The position numbers and the translations under genes are program-made. Source: Conchiformibius sp. (GTDB lineage: Bacteria; Pseudomonadota; Gammaproteobacteria; Burkholderiales; Neisseriaceae). Taken from it: DNA of 33,586 bases. The stretch is from assembly GCA_030537065.1 (NCBI GenBank), contig JAUNOT010000005.1, positions 1 to 33,586 on the forward strand. Reading direction: 5' to 3'. Shown piece after piece: positions 7,985 through 31,109 of this stretch; the stretch's first letter is position 1, and every line of letters starts with the position of its first letter. Below the pieces are notes generated by a model, which worked only from the letters and a program-made list of their open reading frames with translations, was not told the DNA's origin and made no database searches.

Positions 7985-8018
7985 AGGCAGCCTGAAATGT
8001 GTGGGTTTCAGGCTGCCT
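7985..8018. repeat. Inverted DUS pair upstream of mutM
   Basis: AGGCAGCCTGAAA (7985-7997) and TTTCAGGCTGCCT (8006-8018) form 13 bp arms around an 8-base loop. It lies between divergent mutM and the small ORF, so a terminator role is unlikely; two uptake sites are the simpler reading. Confidence 0.75.
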
Positions 8019-8060
8019 TGTTTGAGTTAATCTTTAAGCCAATATCATTTTGCAGATAAG

Positions 8061-8189
8061 GTGGGTTTGGCACAGCTTTCTATAGGCAAGCATATCCTCT
8101 ATTCGTTTTTCTGGATTTGGGCTTTATCATTGCTGATTTTGGCAAGCAGTATTATGGTGGGGGTAGTACCTTTGCATCCTGCGCCGTAA
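8061..8189 (+). CDS. Possible 42-residue single-span membrane protein
   Basis: A short frame from GTG 8061 encodes a strongly hydrophobic segment (ILYSFFWIWALSLLILASSIMVGVV, in two halves across residues 12-36) flanked by a short polar N-terminus with Lys10-His11 and a C-terminal PLHPAP. It would make a single transmembrane helix. Support comes from composition typical of membrane proteins and from a good intrinsic terminator 18 bases after the stop. Against it, the start codon is GTG with only a weak GATAAG upstream, and I do not recognise the family. It could be a remnant of a longer gene. Confidence 0.35.
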   Translation: MGLAQLSIGKHILYSFFWIWALSLLILASSIMVGVVPLHPAP

Positions 8190-8206
8190 TGGATTGAGTT
8201 AGAAAT

Positions 8207-8247
8207 ATCTGCCCTGTGACAATGATGATCATTACGGGGCAGATTTT
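8207..8247 (+). terminator. Intrinsic terminator after the 42-codon ORF
   Basis: Outer arms ATCTGCCC (8207-8214) and GGGCAGAT (8237-8244) enclose a second perfect inverted repeat AATGAT-G-ATCATT, and the structure is followed by TTTT. It implies a plus-strand transcript ending here. Confidence 0.7.
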
Positions 8248-8360
8248 ATACTGATGAATTGATTGAAAAAATAATCAATAACTCTTTATTTTCCATATAA
8301 CATTAATTCAACTCAACATATACTACAATACACCATTTTCTCCAGATTTACACATATGAA

Positions 8361-8999
8361 TTAGATACTTCCAAAGTCACAGTTATACTCATCATTACTA
8401 CTTAAATTAGATATACGCTGTCCTTTTATCAATTTGGCTTGTAAGTCATGTGGTAAATCTACTACCTCATCTAACCATAACTGTTTTAAATATCTTCTAG
8501 ATTTTTCCTCTTTAGACAATTCCTTGTTTTCACCAATTAGCAATTTATTAAAAATCATTGGATCTTGATCATCACGCAATTCTGTAACTTTATCTTCTTT
8601 ATATGCAATATAAGCCTTTACATTTACAGGATCAGTAAGTTTTAAAATAGATAAAATAGCCAATGACGACAAATACATTCCTTTAAATTGCTCCAATACC
8701 GATTTCCAATCTTGTAGTCTCAAATTACTTTTCATTTCCAATAAAGATAGTTCTATTTTACCATCTCGTTGAATTAAAAATGCAGCTTCAGAACATTTTT
8801 TATTTTTTAATGCCCAAACAATAGGAGCTTGATCTTTAGCCCTTATAATTAAAACATCAGTATCAGAAGTAAAAAATGACTTACCCTTACCTAGAGGCTT
8901 TTTTTCCTCAATATAAAACTGAACTTTAGTCTCTCCGTCTTTTATTTCTTCAATATAAATGTAGTCTTGATTTAATAATTCATCAATTAAGTGCCTCAT
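8361..8999 (-). CDS. Island protein with possible PD-(D/E)XK nuclease core, partner of the ATPase
   Basis: I do not recognise this 212-residue protein as a named family. A predicted beta hairpin, AAFLIQRDGKIELSLLEMKSN (in two parts, residues 72-92), ends in Glu88-Met-Lys90, an E-x-K signature. Glu71 lies just before the first strand, and a helix follows with WKSVLEQFKGMY (Gln104, Tyr109). That order resembles the PD-(D/E)XK nuclease fold, but the usual first Asp is not obvious, so nuclease activity is inference. There is no signal peptide or membrane segment. The start is 2 bases after the ATPase stop, with AAGGAG inside the end of that gene, so the two are translationally linked. Composition is AT-rich and Lys/Asn/Ile-biased, unlike the flanking genes, indicating transfer. 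Confidence 0.7.
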   Translation of the reverse strand: MRHLIDELLNQDYIYIEEIKDGETKVQFYIEEKKPLGKGKSFFTSDTDVLIIRAKDQAPIVWALKNKKCSEAAFLIQRDGKIELSLLEMKSNLRLQDWKSVLEQFKGMYLSSLAILSILKLTDPVNVKAYIAYKEDKVTELRDDQDPMIFNKLLIGENKELSKEEKSRRYLKQLWLDEVVDLPHDLQAKLIKGQRISNLSSNDEYNCDFGSI

Positions 9000-9001
9000 C
9001 T

Positions 9002-10528
9002 TTATATTTCTCCTTCTTGAGCTAAATTGATCTGCTCCAAGATAGAACTAGTTTCATCAGATATTTTAATTAGAACTTTATTCAAGGACTCAACAACAAA
9101 ACCATATTTTAGGAAAGGAACATTAACGACCTTAGTTCTACCATCATCACATTGGAAATCATAAATCGCTACTTTATCTTTAGAAATAGTTTCTTTTTTT
9201 GGATCAATATCTAGTTCTCTTAATAAATCTTTTTTATCTTTTAAATCATTCAACAAAACTAAATTATTAACTTGTTGTAAAAATGTAGCACTATGAGTCG
9301 TAATTACCATACGATATCCTTGATTAATCATTTTAGTAATAACTTTTGCAATTTCTTTTTGAGCAGATAAATGCAAATGTGCTTCAGGCTCTTCGAAAAA
9401 AATTAATGGCAATTTATCTGCATCAGTTGAATCAAAAAACAATGACAATGCAGATAACTCGGTTACTAAAGAAGATGTTACTGACAATGGGATTGATTTA
9501 TTAGTTTTATTTGGATAAAACTCAAATCCCTTTTTATCTTTTTTATGAACAACGATTCCATCTAGAATATTTTTGATATCTTTAACAATTTCCCCAGTAC
9601 GTTTATTAACTCTATTTTTTCTACTTGTATTTGAGAAAATTTTATAGATAAATTCATTTAATGGTAGAGGCATCCCAGAGTTGATAGTCGCAAAATTCTG
9701 ATTATTATTGTTTTCCATATTATTCATGCTGAGTTTAAAACTTTCACCTAATATACTATTCAAACCAAACATTAAACCTGTTCTTGCTGCAGGAATATAA
9801 TGTAAATTCTTTACATTATAATCAAAACCACTCTTTCCAAAATAAGAAAACAAAAAGAGATAATAAAATATATTTTCTTTTAATTTTTTTTGTTGATCTT
9901 GATTAAGACGATCTTTTAAGCCAAAGAAAAAATATTTACTGTCAAATATCACCTTATTTGAAAAAGAAACTTTTATCGAAAAATCAGAAATATAAACACC
10001 ATTTTGATGTTCTACACCTACAATACTTTGTAATTTTTCCAACAATGGAAATGCTTCGTCTGGCAATGTATTTGCTATCATCACAATCTTAAAATCTGAT
10101 AATTCAATATTATGAAAATCCAATTTGGGATTTTCAAACAAATCACAATTAAATACTTTTCCAAGAATTAATGATGTATTAGATTTTAGATAGTCATTAA
10201 TTTGCTCATGTATATTAATAATTTCTTCTTTAGAAATTATTAAAGACTGCTCTTTATTGGGAGTATTCAAACACTCATTTATAAGTCTATCAAATTTATT
10301 TTCCCAAATATCCTTTATATTTTTTATTATATTTTTTTCTTGAGGTGCTAAATCTTTCTGTTCAGAGCTACTTTTATTTGCTAAATTATTAATGTAATTC
10401 AAGACACCCCATAATGCAGTTGCAGTATATGTTTTCCCGCTCCCATTTTGCCCAATAAAAATAGTCAATGGTTTGAGTTCAATTTCGGCAAATTCAATTT
10501 TTCCAATATTTTCAATTTGAAATTTCAT
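9002..10528 (-). CDS. SMC/OLD-like AAA ATPase of the AT-rich island
   Basis: The 508-residue protein has an ABC/SMC-type ATPase domain split by a long insert. Walker A GQNGSGKT is at 26-33. YIPAARTGLMFG (245-255) is typical of AAA_15/AAA_21 ATPases. A degenerate signature region lies near SLVTELSALS (353-362). Walker B is PLIFFEEPEAHLH (374-386), and the H-switch is TTHS (410-413). The C-terminal 90 residues lack a TOPRIM domain, so it is not a canonical OLD nuclease. It opens the two-gene AT-rich unit 47 bases after the hrpA stop on the same strand, with TTAGGA upstream of ATG 10528. Such ATPases commonly work with a nuclease partner in phage-defence modules, but that role is inferred. Confidence 0.85.
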   Translation of the reverse strand: MKFQIENIGKIEFAEIELKPLTIFIGQNGSGKTYTATALWGVLNYINNLANKSSSEQKDLAPQEKNIIKNIKDIWENKFDRLINECLNTPNKEQSLIISKEEIINIHEQINDYLKSNTSLILGKVFNCDLFENPKLDFHNIELSDFKIVMIANTLPDEAFPLLEKLQSIVGVEHQNGVYISDFSIKVSFSNKVIFDSKYFFFGLKDRLNQDQQKKLKENIFYYLFLFSYFGKSGFDYNVKNLHYIPAARTGLMFGLNSILGESFKLSMNNMENNNNQNFATINSGMPLPLNEFIYKIFSNTSRKNRVNKRTGEIVKDIKNILDGIVVHKKDKKGFEFYPNKTNKSIPLSVTSSLVTELSALSLFFDSTDADKLPLIFFEEPEAHLHLSAQKEIAKVITKMINQGYRMVITTHSATFLQQVNNLVLLNDLKDKKDLLRELDIDPKKETISKDKVAIYDFQCDDGRTKVVNVPFLKYGFVVESLNKVLIKISDETSSILEQINLAQEGEI

Positions 10529-10561
10529 ATTTTCACAATCCTAAATTTAAATTCATAATTT

Positions 10562-10589
10562 AAATATTTAATTTCTCAATTAAATATTT
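10562..10589 (-). terminator. AT-only hairpin overlapping the hrpA stop codon
   Basis: AAATATTTAATT (10562-10573) and AATTAAATATTT (10578-10589) are perfect 12 bp arms around TCTC, and the right arm runs into the hrpA stop codon (10576-10578). It may end hrpA transcription, though no U-run follows. It also marks the right border of the AT-rich island. Confidence 0.5.
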
Positions 10590-13500
10590 CATTTTTTAAT
10601 AAACGCTTAACCGAAACTGAATAGGGCGTCTTCAATTCCTGCGCAAATAAAGAAACGCGTAATTCCTCCAACTGCCAAGCAAACGCCACCAATTCATCAG
10701 GCACAGGCTGATTTTGTCGTGTTAGCGATTGTAACTTGTCGTTTAGCATCTGTTCAAGCTGGTTAATATCTGCTTCCCTTGCTTGGTCGCGGGCAGGATT
10801 GGCGCTGTATTTTTCCATCCGCAGGGTCATGGCTTTTAGGTACACGGGCAGCCGTTGCCATTGCGCCCATGGGGTGCGCATGGCAAATCCCGCCGAAAGC
10901 AAGTGTTCCACGCGGCGGCGCAGCAATGGCGTTAGCGGATGTTTGCCCAGTTTGCCGTTTAATTCGGTATAGGCAGCGGCGGTTTCCTGCAAATAGCGGC
11001 TCAGGGCTTCTTTTACCGCAGGCAAACGGCTGCGGGCGCGTTTAATTTGTTCTTTAAAGGCTTTTTCGCTGCGCGGCAGTTCATCTTCGCCGATAAAGGC
11101 GCGGTCGCACACGGCTTGGGTCAAATCATCGTGCAGGGTGTCGGCAGGAATATGTTTCAGCAACATCGCTGCTTGAGTAAAACCTTGAATACCTTTGTTT
11201 AAATCTTTCATGTGGTCTTTAAGCTGAAGCTGCATCAGCGCAATCACGCCTGTACGGTGGGTGTGCGCGGCGGCTTCGGGCGTATCAAACAGACGTAAGG
11301 CGATGTTGCCGTTTTTTTCTTTTTGTAGGGCAAGGTAGCCTGTGAGCTGCTGTTTACCACGCGCAAATTTAATGCTTTCAGGCAGCGTGCCGATATTCCA
11401 ATCGGTCAAGTTATCCCGTTCAAATTCTTGGGTATTATCGCGGAAAGTCATGGCGGCGGCGTTGCCAAGCTGCTGTTGCAGTTGCGCCAAATCGCGCCCC
11501 GTTGCCAATTCCTGTCCGCCATCGTCCACCACGCGGATATTGGCGTAACAATGTTCGGGTAAACGCTGTGCCGCCCAATCGTCCAAATTAATCTGTTCCA
11601 ACAAGCGCATATCGCCTGCGTGTTTGGCAACGGCATGAGCAAGCTGCGGCAAAATCGGCTGGCTGTGGTCGGGTTCGGCGGCGAGAAAACGGGTAATAAA
11701 ATCAGGCACAGGCACGCACACGCGGCGGATTTGTTTGGGTAACGCCTTAATCAGCAACTGTAATTTTTCGCGTATCATGCCCGGAACGAGCCATTCCAAT
11801 TCGGCGGCGTTGATGCGGTTTAATACGGTTAGCGGTACGGTCAGCGTAACGCCGTCAAGCGGGTGATGCGGTTCAAAACGGTAATTCAGCTTAAATTTTC
11901 CGTCCTGATTGCGCCAAAATTTGGGGAACTGCTCTTCGGTAATGTGCGCGGCGGCGTGCTGCATCAAATCTTCGCGCGATAAAAATAGTTGTTTTTCATC
12001 AACCGTTTTTAGCCATGCTTCAAAGGTGCGGATATCCGCCAGCGCAACCGTTTTGTTTTCCGATACTTGATAATTTTCAGGCAGCCTGTCGTGGTAAAAC
12101 GCAAACAGGGCTTCTTCGTCCACCAACACATCTTGCTTGCGCGATTTATGCTCTAATTCGCTGATTTCACGAATCAGTTTTTTATTATGGATAAAAAACG
12201 CTGCTTTTAAATCGCATTCCTGCGCCACCAATGCGCTGCGGATAAAAATTTCCCGTGCTTCTTCGGGCGCAACCTTGCCATAAGCAATCGGACGGCGCGG
12301 CAAAACCGTTAAACCATAAAGGGTTACGCGCTCACTCGCCACCACTTCGCCGCGTTTTTGTTCCCAATGCGGCTCAAAATAATGATAGCGCACTAAATGC
12401 GGTGCTTCTGCTTCAATCCATTCGGGCTTGATTTCCGCCACATCACGGGCATAAAGTTTTGTGGTTTCAGTCAGTTCCGCCGCCATCACCCATTTGGGTT
12501 TGGCTTTAAACAAAGACGACGTGGGGAACAAATAAAAATGGCTGCCGCGCGCGCCCGTATAATAATTCTGTGTTCTTTTTGCATTGGTGTTAGTATTTTC
12601 GCTTCGCAAGTCAGCTTGCGTGAGTTGAAACATGCCTACGTTGGCGATTAAGCCCGTTAATAAAGCGCGGTGGATTTGTTCGTAGCCTGCGGCTTTTTTG
12701 GCACGGATTTGGGCGCGGTGCTGTTTTTTATCCAGTTGTTTTTGTTTTAATTTGGCGGATAAATCTTGGTCTTGTGCCGTTTCACTGGCTTGCAGTTGCG
12801 CCACTTTTTCAGGCTGCCTGAACGCGCGTTCTTTTTCCACCAAACCCATTTCCACCGCAATATCAGCCAGTTGCTTATGCAATTCGCGCCACTCGCGCAT
12901 ACGCAAATGTGATAAAAAATACTGATGACACCATTGCACCAACTGCTTATTGGTCAAGCCCTTATCGCGCTCGCGCTGGAAAGAGTCCCAAATATTCAAA
13001 TAACTTAAAAAATCCGACTGCTTATCGGCAAACCGCTCGTGCGCCTTATTCGCCGCTTCACGCGCTTCCAAAGGTCGCTCGCGCGGGTCTTGAATCGACA
13101 AGGCAGACACAATTACCAGCATTTCCGCCACGCAATCATGCTTTTGCGCCGCCAACAGCATACGCGAGATTTTCGGGTCTATCGGCAGGCGCGACATCTG
13201 CTCGCCTGTTTTGCTTAATTGATTTTTGTCGTTTACCGCGCCAAGTTCTTGTAAAACTTGAAATCCATCGTTGATATAACGCTGGTCGGGGGCTTCCAAA
13301 AACGGAAACGCCGCCACATTGCCCAATTTCAGCGCCGCCATGCGCAAAATTACCGCCGCTAAATTGCTGCGGATAATTTCGGGGTCGGTAAACGGCGGGC
13401 GTTGTTCAAAATCTTCTTGCGAATACAAACGGATGCACACGCCAGCCGATACGCGCCCGCAACGCCCCGAGCGTTGCCTCGCCGCTGCCTGCGAGATTTT

Positions 13501-15654: not shown

Positions 15655-15758
15655 TTAGCGATTCAATTTGAAACCGTTACAAGGCGGCGAGCCGTAGACA
15701 GTACAAAAGTACGGCAAGACGAGCCAACGCGGTAAGGGTTTCAAAGTGGATTAGCTAT
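15655..15758. repeat. Correia-like element, copy 2, overlapping the gcvP 3' end
   Basis: The ends TTAGCGATTCAATTTGAAA and, on the opposite strand, ATAGCTAATCCACTTTGAAA are imperfect inverted repeats. The core ACAAGGCGGCGAGCCG...ACGGCAAGACGAGCCAACGC matches copies 1 and 3. It also contains AGTACAAAAGTAC, close to the classic Correia AGTACAAATAGTAC. Its right end supplies the last two codons and the stop of gcvP. Confidence 0.78.
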
Positions 15759-18600
15759 AATCTTCCATCGGCGGGCAGCTGCACACCAAATTCCGATCAC
15801 CATACACATCATCCACCCGTTTTACGGACGGGAAGAATTTATTGTCGCGCACATACGCCAGCGGATACACCGCTTCTTCACGCGAATACGGGTGCGTCCA
15901 TTCGGTGGCGGCCAGCTCGGCGGCGGTGTGCGGCGCATTGGCAAGCGGATTGTCGTCTTTCGGCCAAACGCCGTTCTGCACGTTCAAGGCTTCCTGCTTA
16001 ATCTGCTTCATGGCAGCGATAAAACGGTCCAACTCGGCTTTGCTTTCGCTTTCGGTCGGCTCAATCATCAGCGTACCGGCGACGGGGAAAGACATGGTCG
16101 GAGCGTGGAAACCGTAGTCCATCAAGCGTTTGGCAATATCCACTTCGGTTACGCCGCTTTCGGCTTTCAGCGGACGCAGGTCAATAATGCACTCGTGCGC
16201 CACACGGCCGTTTTTGCCGGTGTACAGCACGGGGTAATCGTCCGAAAGCTGTTTGGCGACATAGTTGGCGTTTAACAGCGCGGCTTCGGTGGCCTGACGC
16301 AGGCCGCGTTTGCCCATCAGGGTGATGTACATCCAAGTAATCGGCAGAATACCGGCCGAACCGTAAGGAGCAGCGGAAACTGCGCTCATACCGGCCGATG
16401 CGCCGTCCACAGGGGCGACGCTGTGGCTGGGGGCAAACGGGGCAAGGTGGGCTTTCAGGCCGATGGGGCCCATACCGGGGCCGCCGCCGCCGTGCGGAAT
16501 GCAGAAGGTTTTGTGCAGGTTCATGTGCAGCACGTCTGCGCCCACTTCGGCAGGCTGCATCAGTCCGACTTGGGCGTTCATATTGGCGCCGTCCATATAC
16601 ACTTGGCCGCCGTTGTCGTGAATGATGCGGCAGATGTCGCGGATGCCTTCTTCATATACGCCGTGGGTGGACGGGTAGGTAATCATCAGCGCACCCAGTT
16701 GTTCGCGGTACTGTTCGGCTTTGGCTTGCAGGTCGGCGATATTGACGTTGCCCTGTTCGTCGGTGTCCACCGCTACCACTTTCATGCCCAGCATTTGCGC
16801 GGTGGCAGGGTTGGTGCCGTGCGCGGAACGGGGAATCAGGCAAATGTTGCGTTCTGCTTGGCCGTTGGCTTCGTGGAAGCGGCGGATGGACAGCAGGCCG
16901 GTGTATTCGCCTTGTGCGCCGGAGTTGGGCTGGATGCAGATTTCGTCAAAACCGGTAATGGCTTTCAGTTGGTTTTGCAGGCCGCCAATCATGTCCAAAT
17001 AGCCTTGCACCTGTTCGCGCGGGGCAAACGGGTGGATATGGGCAAACTCCGCCCAAGTAACGGGCAGCATTTGTGCGGTGGCGTTCAGCTTCATGGTGCA
17101 GCTGCCCAGCGAAATCATGCTGCGGTTCATCGCCAAATCGCGTTCTTCCAGTTTTTTCAGGTAGCGCAGCATTTCGTGTTCGGTGTGATAGCGGTTGAAC
17201 ACGGGGTGTTGCAGGATTTGGTCTTGGCGCAGCAGCGTTTCAGGCAGCCTGAACGCGGGCGCAGACGGCAGTTCGGCGGCTTTACCGGTAAACAGCCGCA
17301 CCAAATCGGCAAAGTCTTGTGCGGAACTTTCTTCGTGGAAAGCGGCCGCCAACACGCTGTCGCCGATGCGGCGCAGGTTGTAGCCTTCGTTCAGGGCGTT
17401 TTGGTAAATGCTGTCGGCCTGCTGTGCGCTGCCGCAATCCACCGCTACGGTGTCAAAAAAGGTGTCGTGTACCACTTTCAGGCTGCCTGAAACGGCATCG
17501 GCAAAGGCGGAAGCCAAAGCGTGAATGCGTGTGGCAATGCGTTTTACGCCTTCGGGGCCGTGGTAAACGGCATACATGCCGGCCAAATTCGCCAGCAAAA
17601 CCTGCGAGGTACAGATATTGGAGTTGGCTTTTTCGCGGCGGATATGCTGTTCGCGCGTTTGCAAGGCCATACGCAATGCCGGTTTGCCGGCCGCGTCCTG
17701 CGACACGCCGATAATACGGCCGGGGGCGGAGCGTTTGTCTTTGTCTTGGAAAGTAAAAAACGCCGCGTGCGGGCCGCCGAAGCCCATCGGTACGCCGAAA
17801 CGCTGGGTATTGCCCAAGGCAATGTCCGCGCCCAATTCGGCAGGCGATTTCAGCAGCACCAAACTCATCACGTCGGCCGCCACCGCCACCACTGCGCCTT
17901 CGGCTTTGACGGCGGCAATCACGTCGCGCAAATCGGCCACATCGCCATCTTTACCGACATATTGGAACAATGCGCCGAAAAAGCCGCCCTGTTTGGTGGT
18001 GTCGAAACCGCCCACCACCAGTTCAAAACCGAAATATTTGGCACGGGTACGCATCACGTCCAAGGTTTGCGGCAACACGCGCTCGTCCACAAAAAAGCGT
18101 TCGCTTTTGACTTTGCTGACGCGTTTGGCCATCGCCATCGCTTCGGCGGCGGCGGTGGCTTCGTCCAACAGCGACGCGCCCGCCAGTTCGTGGCCGCTCA
18201 AGTCGATACACATCTGTTGGAAATTAAGCAGGGCTTCCAAACGTCCTTGCGCGATTTCGGCCTGATAGGGGGTGTAGGCGGTGTACCAGCCGGGGTTTTC
18301 CAAGACATTGCGCAAAATCACATTGGGCAGACGGGTGGGGTAGTAGCCCAAACCGATATAGCTTTTGCGGATTTGGTTTTTGGCGGCCAGATTTTTCAGG
18401 CGCGACAGGGCGTCGGCTTCGCTGATGCCGTCGGGCAAATCCAGCTCGGCTTGCGGCATGCGCACGCTTTGCGGCACGGTGTTGGCGATAAAGCTATCCA
18501 TATCGCTTTCGCCCAAAGCGGCCAACAGGGCGGCTTGGTCGGCAAAGCTGATGTGGCGTCCGGCAAATTCGGCGGAGTGGAACAGGTCGTTGAAGGTCAT
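15751..18600 (-). CDS. gcvP: Glycine dehydrogenase (decarboxylating), P protein
   Basis: GcvP is the PLP-dependent P protein that decarboxylates glycine and passes the aminomethyl group to lipoyl-GcvH. The 949 residues (E. coli 957) form a single-chain P protein. The PLP lysine is Lys697 in [16 protein letters not shown], followed by the glycine-rich loop. The ending CPPMEDYS is typical except for the final Ser; the last Tyr-Ser and stop lie in the Correia-like repeat. ATG 18600 has AAGGAAG 6 bases upstream. DUS-coded stretches include FRLPETLL and VSGSLKV. gcvH and gcvT are on the same strand 2-6 kb away but not contiguous, and the putative origin lies directly upstream. No riboswitch precedes it. 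Confidence 0.97.
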
Positions 18601-18630
18601 GGGGGGCTTCCTTTGTGAACAGAAATCGGG

Positions 18631-18649
18631 GTTTCAGGCAGCCTGAAAC
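18631..18649. repeat. DUS palindrome
   Basis: GTTTCAGGCAGCCTGAAAC lies 31 bases upstream of the gcvP start. Confidence 0.9.
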
Positions 18650-18694
18650 GGTGCGGATTGTACCGCAGATTGTGCGGGGGAAACACCGAAAACC

Positions 18695-18920
18695 TGTGGA
18701 TAACTTTGTGGATAAGTTGTGGATAAAATCCCGCTTATCCACAGTACAAATTTTATCCACAAAGTTATCCCATCTTATCCACAAACAATCCACAGGTTTT
18801 CCACAGCCTTATCCACAATACAAAATATTGATAAGATAAAATAAAAAACACTTATCCACAGATTTTTCAATCCCTCATCATCAAAATCAATTTATATAAT
18901 GTTTAATTTTTGTTTTTAGT
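18695..18920. other. oriC: Putative chromosomal replication origin (oriC): DnaA-box cluster plus AT-rich tract
   Basis: Eight exact copies of the 9-mer TTATCCACA occur in 166 bases. Three are on the minus strand (18695-18703, 18707-18715, 18718-18726). Five are on the plus strand (18735-18743, 18753-18761, 18775-18783, 18809-18817, 18852-18860). TTTTCCACA at 18797-18805 fits the DnaA consensus TTWTNCACA, and two weaker matches lie at 18765 and 18786. The first three point against the rest. An AT-rich tract (about 18818-18920) overlaps the last box and could be the unwinding element. Flanking genes mostly point away from this site (gcvP, hrpA and others leftward, gnd rightward). dnaA is not in the window. 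Such density is characteristic of oriC and is not expected by chance. Confidence 0.85.
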
Positions 18921-19047
18921 GTAGGCAACTAAAGCATTTGTCCAAAACGGCAACAAGGTTTAAAGTAGCGGCCTTTGCTTCACAATCTACGGGGCTGCAT
19001 ACAAAGTACATCCGTACACAGCAGTTTCTATACTGAAAAGGAATTTT

Positions 19048-20496
19048 ATGAAAGGCGATATCGGCGTAATCGGTTTGGCCGTAATGGGTCAAAACCTGAT
19101 TCTGAACATGAACGACAAGGGATTCAAAGTGGTGGCGTTTAACCGCACCGTGTCCAAAGTGGACGAATTCCTAAACGGCGCAGCCAAAGGCACAGACATT
19201 ACCGGTGCCTATTCCCTGCAAGAACTGGTCGGCAGCCTGAAACGGCCGCGTAAAATTATGCTGATGGTACGCGCAGGCAGCGTGGTGGACGACTTTATCA
19301 CCCAACTGCTGCCGCTGCTGGAAGCAGGCGACATCATTATTGACGGCGGCAACGCCAACTATCCCGACACCAACCGCCGCGTGGCCGCCTTGCGCGAACG
19401 CGGCATCTGTTTTATCGGCGCAGGCGTTTCCGGCGGCGAAGAAGGGGCGCGTAACGGGCCGTCCATTATGCCGGGCGGCAACCGTGACGGCTGGGAAGCG
19501 GTTAAACCCATCTTACAGGCCATTGCCGCCAAAACCCCTGACGGCGAACCCTGTTGCGACTGGGTGGGCGACGACGGTGCCGGCCACTTTGTCAAAATGG
19601 TGCACAACGGCATTGAATACGGTGATATGCAGCTGATTTGCGAAGCCTACCAGTTTATGAAAGACGGCTTGGGCATGAGCCACGCCGAAATGCACGACAC
19701 CTTTGCCGCTTGGCAGCAAACCGAACTCAATTCCTACCTAATCGGCATTACCGCCGATATTCTCGCCTACCCGGATACAGACGGTACGCCCTTGGTGGAA
19801 AACATTCTGGACACCGCCGGACAAAAAGGCACGGGCAAATGGACGGGCATCAACGCCTTGGATATGGGCATTCCGTTAACCCTGATTTCCGAAGCCGTAT
19901 TTGCCCGTTGCGTGTCGGCTCTAAAAGAACAACGTGTTCAGGCAGCCACGCTGTTTCCGCACGGTGTAACCCGTGTGGAAGGCGACCGCGAACAATGGCT
20001 GGAAGCCCTGCGCCTATCGCTGTTGGCGTCCAAAATTATTTCTTATGCACAGGGCTTTATGCTGATGCGCGAAGCCAGCAATACCTTCAACTGGCATTTA
20101 AACTACGGCAACACCGCCTTGCTGTGGCGCGAAGGCTGCATTATCCGCAGCGTCTTTTTGGGCAATATCCGCGATGCTTTTGCCGCCGACCCCGATTTGC
20201 CGTTTTTGGGCTTTGACCCCTATTTCCGTCAAATCCTGCAAAACGCCCTGCCTGCATGGCGCAAAGTGGCGGCCAAATCCTTGGAAAACGGCATTCCCAT
20301 GCCCTGTACCGCCGCCGCATTGAGCTTTTTGGACGGTTACAGCAGCGCACGCCTGCCCGCCAACCTGTTGCAGGCACAGCGCGACTATTTCGGCGCACAC
20401 ACCTATGAACGCACTGACCGTCCACGCGGTGAGTTTTTCCACACCAACTGGACCGGCAGCGGCGGCGATACCGCTTCCGGCAATTATCACGTTTAA
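19048..20496 (+). CDS. gnd: 6-phosphogluconate dehydrogenase (decarboxylating)
   Basis: Gnd oxidises 6-phosphogluconate to ribulose 5-phosphate and CO2 with NADP in the pentose phosphate pathway. The 482-residue chain is the long homodimeric form. The N-terminal Rossmann loop is GVIGLAVMGQN and NRT follows strand two. GVSGGEEGARNGPS contacts substrate, and Lys183 and Glu190 in GHFVKMVHNGIEYGDMQ match the catalytic pair. ATG 19048 has AAAGGAA 6 bases upstream. An in-frame DUS fragment encodes VGSLKRP. It is transcribed away from the putative origin, and a 16 bp DUS hairpin terminator separates it from convergent gcvH. Confidence 0.97.
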   Translation: MKGDIGVIGLAVMGQNLILNMNDKGFKVVAFNRTVSKVDEFLNGAAKGTDITGAYSLQELVGSLKRPRKIMLMVRAGSVVDDFITQLLPLLEAGDIIIDGGNANYPDTNRRVAALRERGICFIGAGVSGGEEGARNGPSIMPGGNRDGWEAVKPILQAIAAKTPDGEPCCDWVGDDGAGHFVKMVHNGIEYGDMQLICEAYQFMKDGLGMSHAEMHDTFAAWQQTELNSYLIGITADILAYPDTDGTPLVENILDTAGQKGTGKWTGINALDMGIPLTLISEAVFARCVSALKEQRVQAATLFPHGVTRVEGDREQWLEALRLSLLASKIISYAQGFMLMREASNTFNWHLNYGNTALLWREGCIIRSVFLGNIRDAFAADPDLPFLGFDPYFRQILQNALPAWRKVAAKSLENGIPMPCTAAALSFLDGYSSARLPANLLQAQRDYFGAHTYERTDRPRGEFFHTNWTGSGGDTASGNYHV

Positions 20497-20501
20497 AACG
20501 C

Positions 20502-20539
20502 AGGCAGCCTGAAAACGCAATCACGTTTTCAGGCTGCCT
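20502..20539. terminator. DUS hairpin between convergent gnd and gcvH
   Basis: AGGCAGCCTGAAAACG (20502-20517) and CGTTTTCAGGCTGCCT (20524-20539) form perfect 16 bp arms around 6 bases. Placed between two convergent genes it is a plausible bidirectional terminator made of two DUS copies. Confidence 0.75.
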
Positions 20540-20559
20540 AGTTGTGGATAACTTGCAGA

Positions 20560-20943
20560 TTAGCCGATTTCGACGGCGTATTGTTCCGCACTTAACAGGC
20601 CGTCTAAAGCGGCGGCATCGGCCGGTTTGATTTTAAAGAACCAGCCTGCGCCGTAGGGGTCGCTGTTGACGGTGTCGGGTGCGTCCACCAAGGCTTCGTT
20701 TACCGCCACCACTTCGCCGGCAATGGGCGCGTACACATCGGATGCGGCTTTAACCGACTCCACCGCACCGGCGTTGTCTTCGGCGGCAAACACTGCGCCC
20801 ACTTCGGGCAGCTCGACAAAAACGATGTCGCCCAGCAGCTCTTGCGCGTGTTCGGTAATGCCGACGGTTACGCTGCCGTCCGCTTCGGCACGCAGCCATT
20901 CGTGACTGGCAACGTATTTCAAATCAGCAGGAATATTGCTCAT
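20560..20943 (-). CDS. gcvH: Glycine cleavage system H protein
   Basis: GcvH is the lipoyl carrier that shuttles the aminomethyl group between the P, T and L proteins. The 127 residues match the usual length. The lipoylation site is Lys65 in [15 protein letters not shown], preceded by [21 protein letters not shown], and the C-terminal GWFFKI segment is standard. ATG 20943 has GGAGAAC 7 bases upstream. It is the last gene of a minus-strand run that starts with riboswitch-controlled gcvT, but 72 bases including a DUS palindrome separate it from the preceding small ORF, so co-transcription is possible but not shown. Confidence 0.97.
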
Positions 20944-20983
20944 GGTTTGTTCTCCGTAAGTGGGAAAAGTTGGGGAAAAACGG

Positions 20984-21000
20984 TTTCAGGCAGCCTGAAA
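20984..21000. repeat. DUS palindrome
   Basis: TTTCAGGCAGCCTGAAA lies between gcvH and the 59-codon ORF. Confidence 0.9.
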
Positions 21001-21015
21001 ACCCTTAATTTTAGC

Positions 21016-21195
21016 CTAAATCAGGCGCAATAGGCGCAACAGCATCAAGATGATGCCGACGGCTGCCGCAAACAAAAATATTTTTCTGAGCGGCCAATCC
21101 GTTTCAAAGCGCAAATCCGCATTCAGGCACACGCCCAACACGATAAAAAACACATACAAAAACAGATAGGCCGCTGGAATTTTGTCAAATTCCAT
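21016..21195 (-). CDS. Small two-span membrane protein (59 aa)
   Basis: This frame begins MEFDKIPAAYLFLYVFFIVLG and ends with a second hydrophobic segment (KIFLFAAAVGIILMLLRLLRLI, split across residues 38-59). It gives two predicted transmembrane helices joined by a short polar stretch with NADLRFETDWPLR. The start lies 4 bases past the aldA stop codon on the same strand, so it is almost certainly expressed by coupling to aldA; its own ribosome-binding site is poor. I do not recognise the family. Coding is supported by the conserved operon-like spacing, the clean membrane-protein composition, and a stop just before a DUS. Function is unknown. Confidence 0.7.
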   Translation of the reverse strand: MEFDKIPAAYLFLYVFFIVLGVCLNADLRFETDWPLRKIFLFAAAVGIILMLLRLLRLI

Positions 21196-21198
21196 TGA

Positions 21199-22638
21199 TT
21201 AAATAGCAGTTTCCAAATACACCACCTGCGTTTGCAAAAACTCTTCCAAACCGTGTTTGCCGTCGGCACCGCCCAAGCCCGATTGCTTCCAACCGGCATG
21301 GAAGCCCTGCATGGCTTCAAAGTTTTCGCGGTTGACATAGGTTTCGCCGAACTGCAGGCGGCGGATAACGTAAAACGCCTCGTTCAGATTATTGGTGTAC
21401 ACCGAGCTGGTCAGGCCGAAGGCGCAATCATTGGCCAGTTCGACCGCTTCGTCCAATTCGTCAAACACCGCCACCGGCAGCACCGGCCCGAAGGTTTCTT
21501 CGCGCATAATGTCCATGCCGTTGTGTACGTCCGTCAGCAGGGTCGGCTCAAAGAAATAGCCTTTTCCTGTGGCACGTTTACCGCCGCACACCAGCGTTGC
21601 GCCCTGCTCCACCGCACGGGCGACTTTGGCGGCCACCGATTCGGCGGCACGCGCTTCAATCAGCGGGCCCATTTCCAACGCGCCTGCTTCGGCTTCGGCA
21701 GGGTTGCCGTAACGCACCGACTGCATGGCGGCGGTCATTTTTTCTACAAACGCATCTTTCAGGCTGCGGTGTACATACACGCGCTCGGCGCAGTTGCAAA
21801 TCTGGCCGGTATTGCCCACCCTCGAAGCCAAAATCGCTTGCACCGCCAAATCCAAGTCGGCATCTTTCAACACCAGCGCAGGGGCTTTGCCGCCCAATTC
21901 CAGCGAAACTTTAGTAATGTTGGGCGCGGCGGCGGCCATCACTTTGCGCCCTGCTTCCACCGAACCGGTCAGGCTGACCATATCAATCTGCGGACTTTCC
22001 GCTACCGCCGCACCGGCTTCGTCGCCGCCCATCACCACGTTAAACACGCCTTCAGGCAGCCCGACCGCATCGGCAATTTCGCAGAAAATCTGGCAGTTAA
22101 TCGGCGTGATATTGCTGGGCTTAATCACAATGGTGTTGCCCGTTACCAAAGCAGGGCCCATTTTCCGCGCAATCAGGAAAAACGGGAAATTCCACGGCAA
22201 AATGCCGCCAATCACGCCCAATGGGCGTTTGAACAGCAGGATATTTTCACGCGGACGGTCGCTTTGGATAATTTCGCCTTCGTAGCGGCGCGCCCATTCG
22301 GCCTGATAATCCAAATAATCGGCGGTAAACAGCACTTCAATCCGCGCCAAATCACGGGTTTTGCCGCCTTCGGCCACAATGGTGTCGGTCAGTTCGTCGG
22401 CGCGTTCGCGGATACCGGCGGCAATACGGCGCAGATACGCACCGCGTTCCACCGCAGGCAGACGCTCCCAAGCAGGCTGTGCGGCACGGGCGGCGGCCAC
22501 GGCACGTGCCACGTCTTCGCGGCTGCCGTCGGGCGCACGCGCAATCACGGCTTCGGTGGCGGGATTCAGCACATCGGTATAGCTGCCGTTAAAGGCGGTT
22601 TCAAATGTGCCGTTGATATAGTGGGATAAGGTTTTCAC
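21199..22638 (-). CDS. aldA: Lactaldehyde/glycolaldehyde dehydrogenase (AldA-type)
   Basis: The 479-residue protein matches E. coli AldA closely and has the same length. AldA oxidises lactaldehyde or glycolaldehyde to lactate or glycolate with NAD. Shared segments include VNPATEAVI-like VLNPATEAVI, AEWARRYEGEIIQSDRP, ILPWNFPFFLIARKM and NRENFEAMQGFHAGW. Catalytic residues are Glu247 (LELGG) and Cys281 (GQICNC). The start is GTG 22638, with AAGGAGC 7 bases upstream; no better ATG exists and the family begins here. It lies between an amino-acid-binding lipoprotein gene and the 59-codon membrane protein, downstream of gcvT. Substrate preference cannot be fixed by sequence. Confidence 0.92.
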   Translation of the reverse strand: MKTLSHYINGTFETAFNGSYTDVLNPATEAVIARAPDGSREDVARAVAAARAAQPAWERLPAVERGAYLRRIAAGIRERADELTDTIVAEGGKTRDLARIEVLFTADYLDYQAEWARRYEGEIIQSDRPRENILLFKRPLGVIGGILPWNFPFFLIARKMGPALVTGNTIVIKPSNITPINCQIFCEIADAVGLPEGVFNVVMGGDEAGAAVAESPQIDMVSLTGSVEAGRKVMAAAAPNITKVSLELGGKAPALVLKDADLDLAVQAILASRVGNTGQICNCAERVYVHRSLKDAFVEKMTAAMQSVRYGNPAEAEAGALEMGPLIEARAAESVAAKVARAVEQGATLVCGGKRATGKGYFFEPTLLTDVHNGMDIMREETFGPVLPVAVFDELDEAVELANDCAFGLTSSVYTNNLNEAFYVIRRLQFGETYVNRENFEAMQGFHAGWKQSGLGGADGKHGLEEFLQTQVVYLETAI

Positions 22639-22665
22639 GGTAAAGCTCCTTGTAGTTGGAAAGGT

Positions 22666-22684
22666 GTTTCAGGCAGCCTGAAAC
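22666..22684. repeat. DUS palindrome
   Basis: GTTTCAGGCAGCCTGAAAC lies between the lipoprotein gene and aldA. Confidence 0.9.
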
Positions 22685-22693
22685 GGGTGGCGG

Positions 22694-23503
22694 TTATTCT
22701 TCCTGCCGCCATTTTTGCAGGATGGTTTTGTATTTTCCGTTTTTCTTTAGGTTTTCCAAACCTTTGTTAATTTTTTCCAATAATTCGGTACGGTCTTTGC
22801 GTACCAGAAAAACCATATTGGTGGATTCGGCCGTATTATTAAGAAAAATCTCGCTGGCAAATTGATAGCCGTTGTTTTTAAAGGTGGGGCTGTTCATATA
22901 GTAGCGCATGACGGTGGAATCGCCTGCCGCCGCTTCCGCTTCGCCGCGCGCCACGGCGGTTAATGCCAGATACAGGGTGTCGGTTTGTTTCAGCTGTTTG
23001 CGCCCCAGCCCGTATTGTTCTTGGATGTATTCGCCGGTGTCGTCGTTGACGGGGACGGCAATCATTTTGTTTTTCCACAGCCGGTCACTCAAGATTTCGG
23101 GCTTGATGGCGGCAATGCGGTAGGGCGAGTCGTAATAAGGGCTGCTGATGCTGCCGTGTTCTACCGCTTCTTCAATGGTTAGTGCGGCGGCGGCAATATC
23201 GGCTTGGGAGGTTTGAAACACTTGGAAAAAGTCGTCCCAATTTTGGTGGCGGAAGGTTAAACGGAAGCCTTGGTCGGCGGCAATGGCATTGAGCAAGTCC
23301 ACATCCAAGCCGAGAATATCGCCGTGCTGGTCGTAAAACTCAAACGGCGGATAGGTGGCATCGGTCAGCACGGTGTATTCAGGCAGCGACGTATCCGCTT
23401 GGGCTTGTTTCGTTTCGCGCTTCGGCTGCGGCTCGGAACAGGACGACACCAGCACGGCAGCAATACAAAACAAGGCGGCGGTTAAACGGCGAAATAAGTT
23501 CAT
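22694..23503 (-). CDS. Amino-acid ABC transporter substrate-binding lipoprotein (family 3)
   Basis: The 269-residue protein has a lipoprotein signal with lipobox LVSS-Cys22 and then a polar linker. A family 3 solute-binding domain (SBP_bac_3) follows, with YPPFEFYDQHGDILGLDVDLLNAIA and ADIAAAALTI, where an Arg or acidic residue normally contacts the ligand's alpha-amino and carboxyl groups. The family binds polar or basic amino acids in the periplasm. No permease or ATPase gene adjoins. It lies in the minus-strand run between gcvT and aldA, so glycine or another amino acid is an attractive ligand, but that is inference. ATG 23503 has GGAGTAG upstream. A second member lies at 28518. Confidence 0.88.
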   Translation of the reverse strand: MNLFRRLTAALFCIAAVLVSSCSEPQPKRETKQAQADTSLPEYTVLTDATYPPFEFYDQHGDILGLDVDLLNAIAADQGFRLTFRHQNWDDFFQVFQTSQADIAAAALTIEEAVEHGSISSPYYDSPYRIAAIKPEILSDRLWKNKMIAVPVNDDTGEYIQEQYGLGRKQLKQTDTLYLALTAVARGEAEAAAGDSTVMRYYMNSPTFKNNGYQFASEIFLNNTAESTNMVFLVRKDRTELLEKINKGLENLKKNGKYKTILQKWRQEE

Positions 23504-23529
23504 TGCTTATCTACTCCAAGGTTATTGTT

Positions 23530-23546
23530 TTTCAGGCAGCCTGAAA
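23530..23546. repeat. DUS palindrome
   Basis: TTTCAGGCAGCCTGAAA lies 27 bases upstream of the lipoprotein start. Confidence 0.9.
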
Positions 23547-23597
23547 TCAGTATTTATATTGACTTGGATGAAGCATAGCCGTAACCCAAGCTACTGT

Positions 23598-23614
23598 TTT
23601 CAGGCTGCCTGAAA
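23598..23614. repeat. DUS palindrome
   Basis: TTTCAGGCTGCCTGAAA lies immediately after the gcvT stop codon. Confidence 0.9.
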
Positions 23615-23616
23615 CA

Positions 23617-24714
23617 TCAGTCAAACTGCTTTTTGCCGTTACGCACAAACGGCAGTTTCAACACGCGTACATCGGTCAGCGTACCGCGAATATCCACTTG
23701 TGCGGTATCGCCTGTTTCTTTTGGCACGCGGGCAATGGCGATGGACTGTTTCAGGCTGGGCGAAAACGTACCGCTGGTAATCACGCCTTTGCCATGCGCG
23801 GTCACAACTTCCATGCCTTCGCGCAAAACGCCGCGCGTTTCCAGCAGCAAACCAACCTGTTTGACATCCACACCTGCGTTTTTCAATGCCAGTAAAGCGG
23901 TTTTGCCGATAAAGTCGCGGTTTTCGTCTTTTAAATCCACTGTCCAGCCCATGCCTGCCAGCAACGGGCCGGTTTCTTCGTCCATATCGTGTCCGTACAA
24001 ATTCATGCCTGCTTCCATACGCAGGGTGTCGCGCGCGCCCAAGCCGCAGGGTTGTACGCCTGCTTCACGCAGGGCGGCAAAAAAGCCGTTGGCTTCGGTG
24101 GCGGGCAAAATCACTTCTACGCCTTCTTCGCCGGTGTAGCCGGTGCGGGCAACAAACCAGTCATTGCCTAAATCTGCGCCTTGGAACACAGCCAAGCCGT
24201 TTACGGTATCGGCCCATTCGGGTTTAACGGACAACAGTTTTTCTACGGCTTTCGGACCTTGCACGGCCAGCATCGCCAAATCATAACGCGGGGTGATTTC
24301 TACACCAAATGCTGCGCCGATTTGGTTAAACTGCGCCAAGTCTTTTTCGCGGGTGGCGGCGTTGGACACAATGCGGTATTGGGTTTCGGCTTCGTTGGCG
24401 CGGTAAACAATCAGGTCGTCCATCACGCCGCCTTGCTCGTTTAACATGGCGGAATACAGGGCTTTACCGATAAAAGACAGTTTGGCGACATCGTTTGCCA
24501 GCAGTTTGCGGAAAAAGTCGCGGGCGCGTTCGCCACGCACGTCCGACACCAGCATATGCGATACGTCAAACATGCCTGCATCGGTACGCACGGCTTCGTG
24601 TTCTTGGATTTGCGAACCGTAATTGACGGGCAATTCCCAGCCGGCAAAATCAACGAGTTTGCCGCCTGCGTCTTTGTGGGCTTGGTTAAAGGGGGTGGTT
24701 TTGGGGGCAGTCAT
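23617..24714 (-). CDS. gcvT: Aminomethyltransferase, glycine cleavage T protein
   Basis: GcvT releases ammonia from aminomethyl-GcvH and transfers the C1 unit to tetrahydrofolate. The 365 residues (E. coli 364) start [14 protein letters not shown] and include [13 protein letters not shown], the [17 protein letters not shown] segment, [10 protein letters not shown] and the [18 protein letters not shown] region that lines the folate site. ATG 24714 is chosen over an upstream ATG at 24825 because the family begins here, GGAGACC precedes it, and the upstream stretch is a structured riboswitch. A tandem glycine riboswitch ending in a terminator lies directly upstream, so expression is expected to rise with glycine. 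Confidence 0.97.
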
Positions 24715-24734
24715 AGCGGTCTCCGTGAATAGGC

Positions 24735-24755
24735 AAAAAGGCGCATGTGTGCGCC
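24735..24755 (-). terminator. Riboswitch expression-platform terminator
   Basis: On the minus strand GGCGCA-CACA-TGCGCC (24740-24755) is followed by TTTTT (24735-24739), just after aptamer 2 and about 20 bases before the gcvT start. It is the likely regulated terminator. The same hairpin sequence also occurs inside aptamer 2 at 24819-24834. Confidence 0.8.
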
Positions 24756-24756
24756 G

Positions 24757-24942
24757 CCCTATCTGTCCGTTTACCTGAGATTTTCGGCGGCCGTGCGGCT
24801 GCCTTCGCCCCTTCGGTGGGCGCATGTGTGCGCCGCTCTCCAGATGTTGTTGATGCTTGCAGTCCGTTTACCTGAGCGATTTAAGGGTATCTGCGCCTTC
24901 GGTGCCGCGTATTTCAGGCTGCCTGAAATGCGGTCTCTCCTG
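24757..24942 (-). ncRNA. Tandem glycine riboswitch controlling gcvT
   Basis: On the minus strand two glycine aptamers follow one another. Aptamer 1 starts GGAGAGACC (24932-24940) and contains CACCGAAGG and CTCAGGTAAACGGAC. Aptamer 2 starts GGAGAGCGGC near 24839 and contains CACCGAAGGGG and a second CTCAGGTAAACGGAC before GATAGGGC. These are the hallmark conserved blocks of the glycine (gcvT) riboswitch. Cooperative glycine binding normally favours read-through into gcv genes. A DUS palindrome (24911-24929) forms the first stem-loop of aptamer 1. Confidence 0.95.
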
Positions 24943-30954: not shown

Positions 30955-30999
30955 GGATGATGCTTTCAAGCGGCACAAAGGAACGGCTATGATAAAACC

Positions 31000-31016
31000 T
31001 TTCAGGCTGCCTGAAA
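31000..31016. repeat. DUS palindrome
   Basis: TTTCAGGCTGCCTGAAA lies between divergent lpxC and gapA. Confidence 0.9.
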
Positions 31017-31109
31017 ACCGTTTGAAAAAATTCCCCCGCAAACCAAGCCAAGCCCTGCGTTTTGTGGGAAAATAACACCTTTCCGCAACCCGTTTTATGG
31101 AGTATCCCC

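Follow-up and report, generated by a model that had tools for sequence, protein, structure and literature searches.

Bacillus subtilis and Helicobacter pylori have bipartite origins that flank dnaA. In E. coli oriC, the DnaA boxes of the left array, including R1, are co-oriented and those of the middle and right parts are opposed; the DNA is bent by IHF, and the single-stranded duplex-unwinding element (DUE) is recruited (PMC10380432). The basal unwinding system (BUS) combines DnaA boxes with DnaA-trios (PMC8287927).

Here we analysed a window of 33.6 kb that constitutes an entire contig (C165) of a draft genome of a Neisseriaceae species (1.93 Mb, 176 contigs, 90.7% complete; about 9% of the genome is absent from the draft). 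Judged by its sequence and by comparison with relatives, the region 18695-18925, between gcvP and gnd, is very probably the chromosomal oriC of this species, and the placement of a putative oriC in this interval by an initial annotation is the best-supported reading, by virtue of homologous cores located at the skew change in relatives. Comparison gives good support to its classification as an ordinary DnaA/IHF-type oriC uncoupled from dnaA; what was unexpected is the presence of twin cores in relatives and a change of place within the genus.

The box cluster and the predicted unwinding region

The motif scan of the window bore out the initial annotation in detail: eight exact copies of the DnaA box TTATCCACA and one variant, TTTTCCACA, lie within 166 bp (18695-18860), three reversed boxes being followed by six forward ones; AT-rich tracts at 18820-18850 and 18876-18920 are associated with the cluster; and the large flanking genes, gcvP on the left (15751..18600, minus strand) and gnd on the right (19048..20496, plus strand), point outward. 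The reversed trio (18695..18726, minus strand) consists of exact boxes at 18695, 18707 and 18718, 11-12 bp apart, and recurs with the same spacing in the sister species G001. The forward series (18735..18817, plus strand) comprises exact boxes at 18735, 18753, 18775 and 18809 and the variant at 18797, and contains a box pair conserved in the family. The terminal, R1-like box (18852..18860, plus strand, exact) faces the candidate unwinding block and occupies near-invariant columns in an alignment of 29 cores. Exact boxes are expected about 0.19 times per whole window and 0.0009 times per 166 bp, so that the Poisson probability of eight in the cluster is about 1e-29; boxes with at most one mismatch number 26 in the window, compared to 6.1 +/- 2.5 in shuffled sequences. 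A scan of the draft genome detected no second site with two exact, same-orientation boxes within 25 bp of each other. The locus thus contains an intergenic DnaA-box cluster, as is typical of bacterial chromosomal origins, in two oppositely oriented arrays, as in origins of the E. coli type.

The candidate DUE (18861..18925, no strand assigned) was delineated from sequence conservation in relatives and from the profile of duplex stability, where the 40-mer at 18880-18919 is one of the least stable in the window. The unwinding block of the relatives consists of a conserved TCATCATC followed by a TTTTTATTATTTAAA-like stretch. By sequence and duplex stability, a predicted AT-rich unwinding element adjoins the array, as expected of an oriC. 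Between the array and the DUE-facing box, where E. coli-type origins carry an IHF site, there is a predicted one, TATCAATATTTTG (18821..18833, minus strand), which matches WATCAANNNNTTR exactly and precedes the terminal box by 31 bp. Of 33 cores of relatives, 25 have an IHF-like site at -30/-31 if up to two mismatches are allowed, but AT-rich positions elsewhere in the cores reach counts of 18, so these sites are support rather than proof. Genes for IhfA, IhfB, HU and DnaA are present in the genome, as is one for another protein with a DnaA domain that has the size of Hda (Hda-like). In contrast to GATC-rich, SeqA-controlled origins, there is no GATC in 18650-19047, which counts against SeqA-type control. 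Inspection by eye revealed no clear DnaA-trio repeats in this species, where regular trios at their usual spacing from the box are not apparent, and weak A-type trios in some relatives; a DnaA-trio/BUS reading is thus less than clear. A phage origin was set aside, as no match was found in phage records.

Dense boxes combined with an IHF-like site could also mark a datA/DARS-like site for DnaA titration or reactivation, that is, boxes and IHF without unwinding, and some family members, such as G056, do carry further dense clusters. Such sites would not account for the conserved AT-rich unwinding block beside the terminal box or for the skew change that coincides with the core in relatives, and we give this interpretation very little credence. 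For the preferred reading as an oriC, protein binding, unwinding and helicase loading are inferred from the sequence: DnaA-ATP would fill the forward series ending at the 18852 box as well as the opposed trio at 18695-18726; at 18821-18833, flanked by the terminal box and the array, IHF would bend the DNA; the block of AT-rich sequence (about 18861-18925) would open, with a DnaA oligomer capturing one strand; and DnaB would be loaded, such that two forks start.

The window shows two further features of gene order and composition. The genes gcvP, gcvH and gcvT share one neighborhood (15751-24825) that is broken by the candidate origin and gnd, and again by aldehyde dehydrogenase and ABC binding-protein genes. 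At 8000-10600, an island of 27-36% GC, with open reading frames at 8361-8999 and 9002-10528 (both on the minus strand), interrupts a contig of 50-60% GC and is probably acquired DNA.

Core conservation, GC skew and the dnaA locus

Across Neisseriaceae, a core was recognized upstream of gnd that consists of a pair of forward boxes with a spacing of about 30 bp, an AT-rich spacer and a terminal forward box, followed after about 17 nt by an (A)TCATCATCTTTTTATTATTTAAA-like sequence. The core, 190 positions encompassing the box pair, the IHF-like site, the terminal box and the AT-rich unwinding block, was used to build a sequence-only model (R1) from 29 cores, among which were four second copies. 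The model matches 65 of the 72 family genomes, identifies the core of the species under study at 18733..18912 on the plus strand (E 1.1e-22), and recovers second copies that were not in the training set (for example, those of G020, G024, G025, G034 and G039) with E values of 1e-14 to 1e-16. This yields a sequence-defined candidate oriC for Neisseriaceae, Neisseria cores included, that is independent of dnaA and could help origin placement as well as ploidy and growth-rate estimates. A search of the openly accessible literature found no described Neisseria oriC; some of these loci are likely already predicted in DoriC.

The initial annotation had further proposed that the origin lies away from dnaA, and this is supported: both in the sister species and in the majority of tested relatives, the skew changes at the homologous core and not at dnaA. 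There is no dnaA in the window, the dnaA gene of this genome being split over contigs C75 and C78, and the cluster is not adjacent to dnaA, dnaN or rpmH, as a dnaA-linked oriC would be. Because the draft consists of 176 contigs, its own GC skew cannot decide on the origin. Against the preferred reading, the skew in the window barely changes at the boxes, being -0.006 on the left and -0.001 on the right, with strand-balanced third-position values of -0.058 and +0.017, a weak change if in the right direction; the local minimum of the cumulative skew at 13.6 kb is uninformative, being derived from a 33.6-kb contig only.

The skew of relatives was sampled in 20-kb stretches. In G001, the sole other sampled species of the genus, the core is located between lpxC and gapA, within a box cluster of the same layout: three reversed boxes (12/11-bp spacing) lead into a forward series, and the terminal box stands apart, with extra boxes compared to the species under study, one of them reversed. 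The skew of the adjacent samples is -0.044 on the left and +0.028 on the right of this core, the sole minus-to-plus change among 20 samples on the 2.1-Mb main contig; the opposite, plus-to-minus change lies near 1.41-1.53 Mb, and dnaA is 374 kb from the core. The skew also turns from negative to positive in the gnd/lpxC neighborhood of G071, G041, G031, G048 and G009, and changes sign at the core in G012, G032, G043, G005 and G006. In G008, which has a gnd-side core only, the change at the core is from -0.086 to +0.034, with three samples per side in agreement, and none is seen at dnaA. In G067, there is no skew change in the 10-kb flanks of the core. In G027, with the core at gnd, no clear change is seen at this single core; the sign change lies closer to gapA, at a distance of 40-60 kb from the core (2267-2327 kb, L308-L312), an offset that may reflect a rearrangement of recent date or a second core that was missed. 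Several of the sampled sequence records start at dnaA or within about 1.2 kb of it, a position at least about 185 kb away from the origin defined by skew.

An origin at dnaA-rpmH-rnpA, as in many bacteria, with the gnd cluster being an accessory DnaA-binding site, would fit the four exact boxes that contig C78 carries in the interval from the dnaA start to rnpA (387-543, L291) and the box pair found just upstream of dnaA in many Neisseria. However, the match of the dnaA-side boxes to the core model is partial (E about 1e-6), the unwinding block being absent, and the dnaA flanks show no such skew change in G041, G031, G009, G005 and G008, nor any sign change in G001 and G048, where sampling was sparser. 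We therefore regard a dnaA-side origin as quite unlikely; the boxes between dnaA and rnpA probably serve autoregulation of a predicted dnaA promoter. The copy upstream of gnd, the only full core recognized in this species, would be read as its active origin, a role that we infer from sequence comparison.

Twin cores around lpxC

Two full cores, one just upstream of gnd and one just upstream of gapA, were detected in 32 genomes, a second copy being usual among the relatives; lpxC sits between the twin cores in most neighborhoods mapped in detail, with rearrangements in G026 and G047. Full-length, outward-facing twin cores surround lpxC in G031, G041, G034, G039, G045, G024, G007, G017 and G019, among others (L207, L203, L280, L270, L272, L269, L274, L268 and L266). 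G009 was counted for both sides, since its gnd, at the end of a contig, is some 2 kb away from a core, and the neighborhood of G056 is split over contigs. Only the gnd-side core was found in the species under study, G008 and G027, and only the gapA-side core in the sister species (G001) and in G012, G032 and G043. The gap between lpxC and gapA in the window (30955..31109, no strand assigned), 12 kb from the cluster, is where relatives carry the second core and the sister species its only full one; it contains no DnaA boxes. The origin neighborhood thus differs within the genus.

Comparison of the gcvP-gnd interval with related genomes, as suggested by the initial annotation, held for the gnd side only: gnd is a conserved neighbor of the gnd-side core, and relatives carry a core upstream of gnd, gapA or both, whereas gcvP is not a neighbor in the mapped relatives and gcvP-gnd is not a shared location. 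Loss of the boxes in close relatives had been taken to speak against an origin; the gnd-side boxes are indeed gone in G001, yet module and skew minimum are found together at lpxC-gapA, so that this loss supports the origin rather than refuting it.

All 41 gnd-side cores are directed toward gnd and all 37 gapA-side cores toward gapA, 47-308 bp from the start codon, which is what a DnaA-controlled promoter region of these genes, with a coincidental replication signal, would look like. The same direction, away from the origin, is also expected from co-orientation with the fork. Moreover, the core persists in genera g3 and g10, in which neither gapA nor gnd was detected nearby; in the mapped members G005, G006 and G067 it sits next to lpxC, and G005 and G006 show the skew change. 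The change follows the core where the genes lie elsewhere, as in G005 and in G012, where gnd is 134 kb from the only core and the switch in skew, from -0.022 to +0.109, falls at the core and not across gnd (flanks -0.100 and -0.056). A promoter with no part in replication is hardly believable on this evidence, and the candidate origin may have a dual role, as promoter and origin.

Some genomes depart from the twin arrangement. In G047 (L267 7411-9455), near-identical cores in the same orientation lie on both sides of gnd, with a partial third near gapA; G005 (L265 9070-9546), as well as G004 and G006, carry tandem duplicate cores next to lpxC, separated by about 300 bp; and G056 contains extra, very dense arrays of perfect DnaA boxes (C18:22704-23141 and C27:5394-5458) away from its gnd-side core, which are possibly titration sites.

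As a tentative scenario, to which we assign somewhat less than an even chance, the ancestor of Neisseriaceae had a twin origin, with two complete, redundant oriC cores (boxes, IHF-like site and unwinding block) flanking lpxC, one directed at gnd and the other at gapA, either of which could be lost, and relocation within genera occurred by reciprocal loss. Because either core would be losable, the place of the origin would differ between species of one genus. In a tree of the cores, clustering by side exceeds that in shuffles, with weak support, and the cores of the species under study and its sister are near each other. Reciprocal retention is the simplest account of the sides in this genus, although the core tree leaves the sides unsorted; transposition within the genus or gene conversion may be alternatives. 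Twin cores, together with single copies that differ between species, provide a natural test of origin duplication, redundancy and relocation.

Comparison with known origins

Among the known systems, the bipartite origins resemble the twin modules of the relatives in having two box modules with a gene in between. The relatives' modules, however, flank lpxC rather than dnaA, and each has both a box array and an AT-rich block, unlike those of bipartite origins; the species under study has one full module and a reversed box trio. The BUS is similar in that a forward box is followed by an AT-rich block, and seems to differ in having regular trios.

The closest likeness is to E. coli oriC (located between mnmG and mioC), which is similarly uncoupled from dnaA and where a terminal, R1-type box likewise faces an AT-rich DUE. 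With the E. coli sequence oriented such that R1 reads in the forward direction, the start of its minus-strand IHF 13-mer precedes R1 by 31 bp, the same offset and strand as the exact WATCAANNNNTTR match in the predicted origin. The polarity of the boxes also agrees, the forward series corresponding to the left array and the reversed trio to the right one. The differences lie in the boxes themselves, nearly all of which match the consensus perfectly whereas the E. coli sites are mostly weak; in the lack of recognizable repeated 13-mers; in the lack of GATC, and hence of any sign of SeqA/Dam sequestration; and in the flanking genes.
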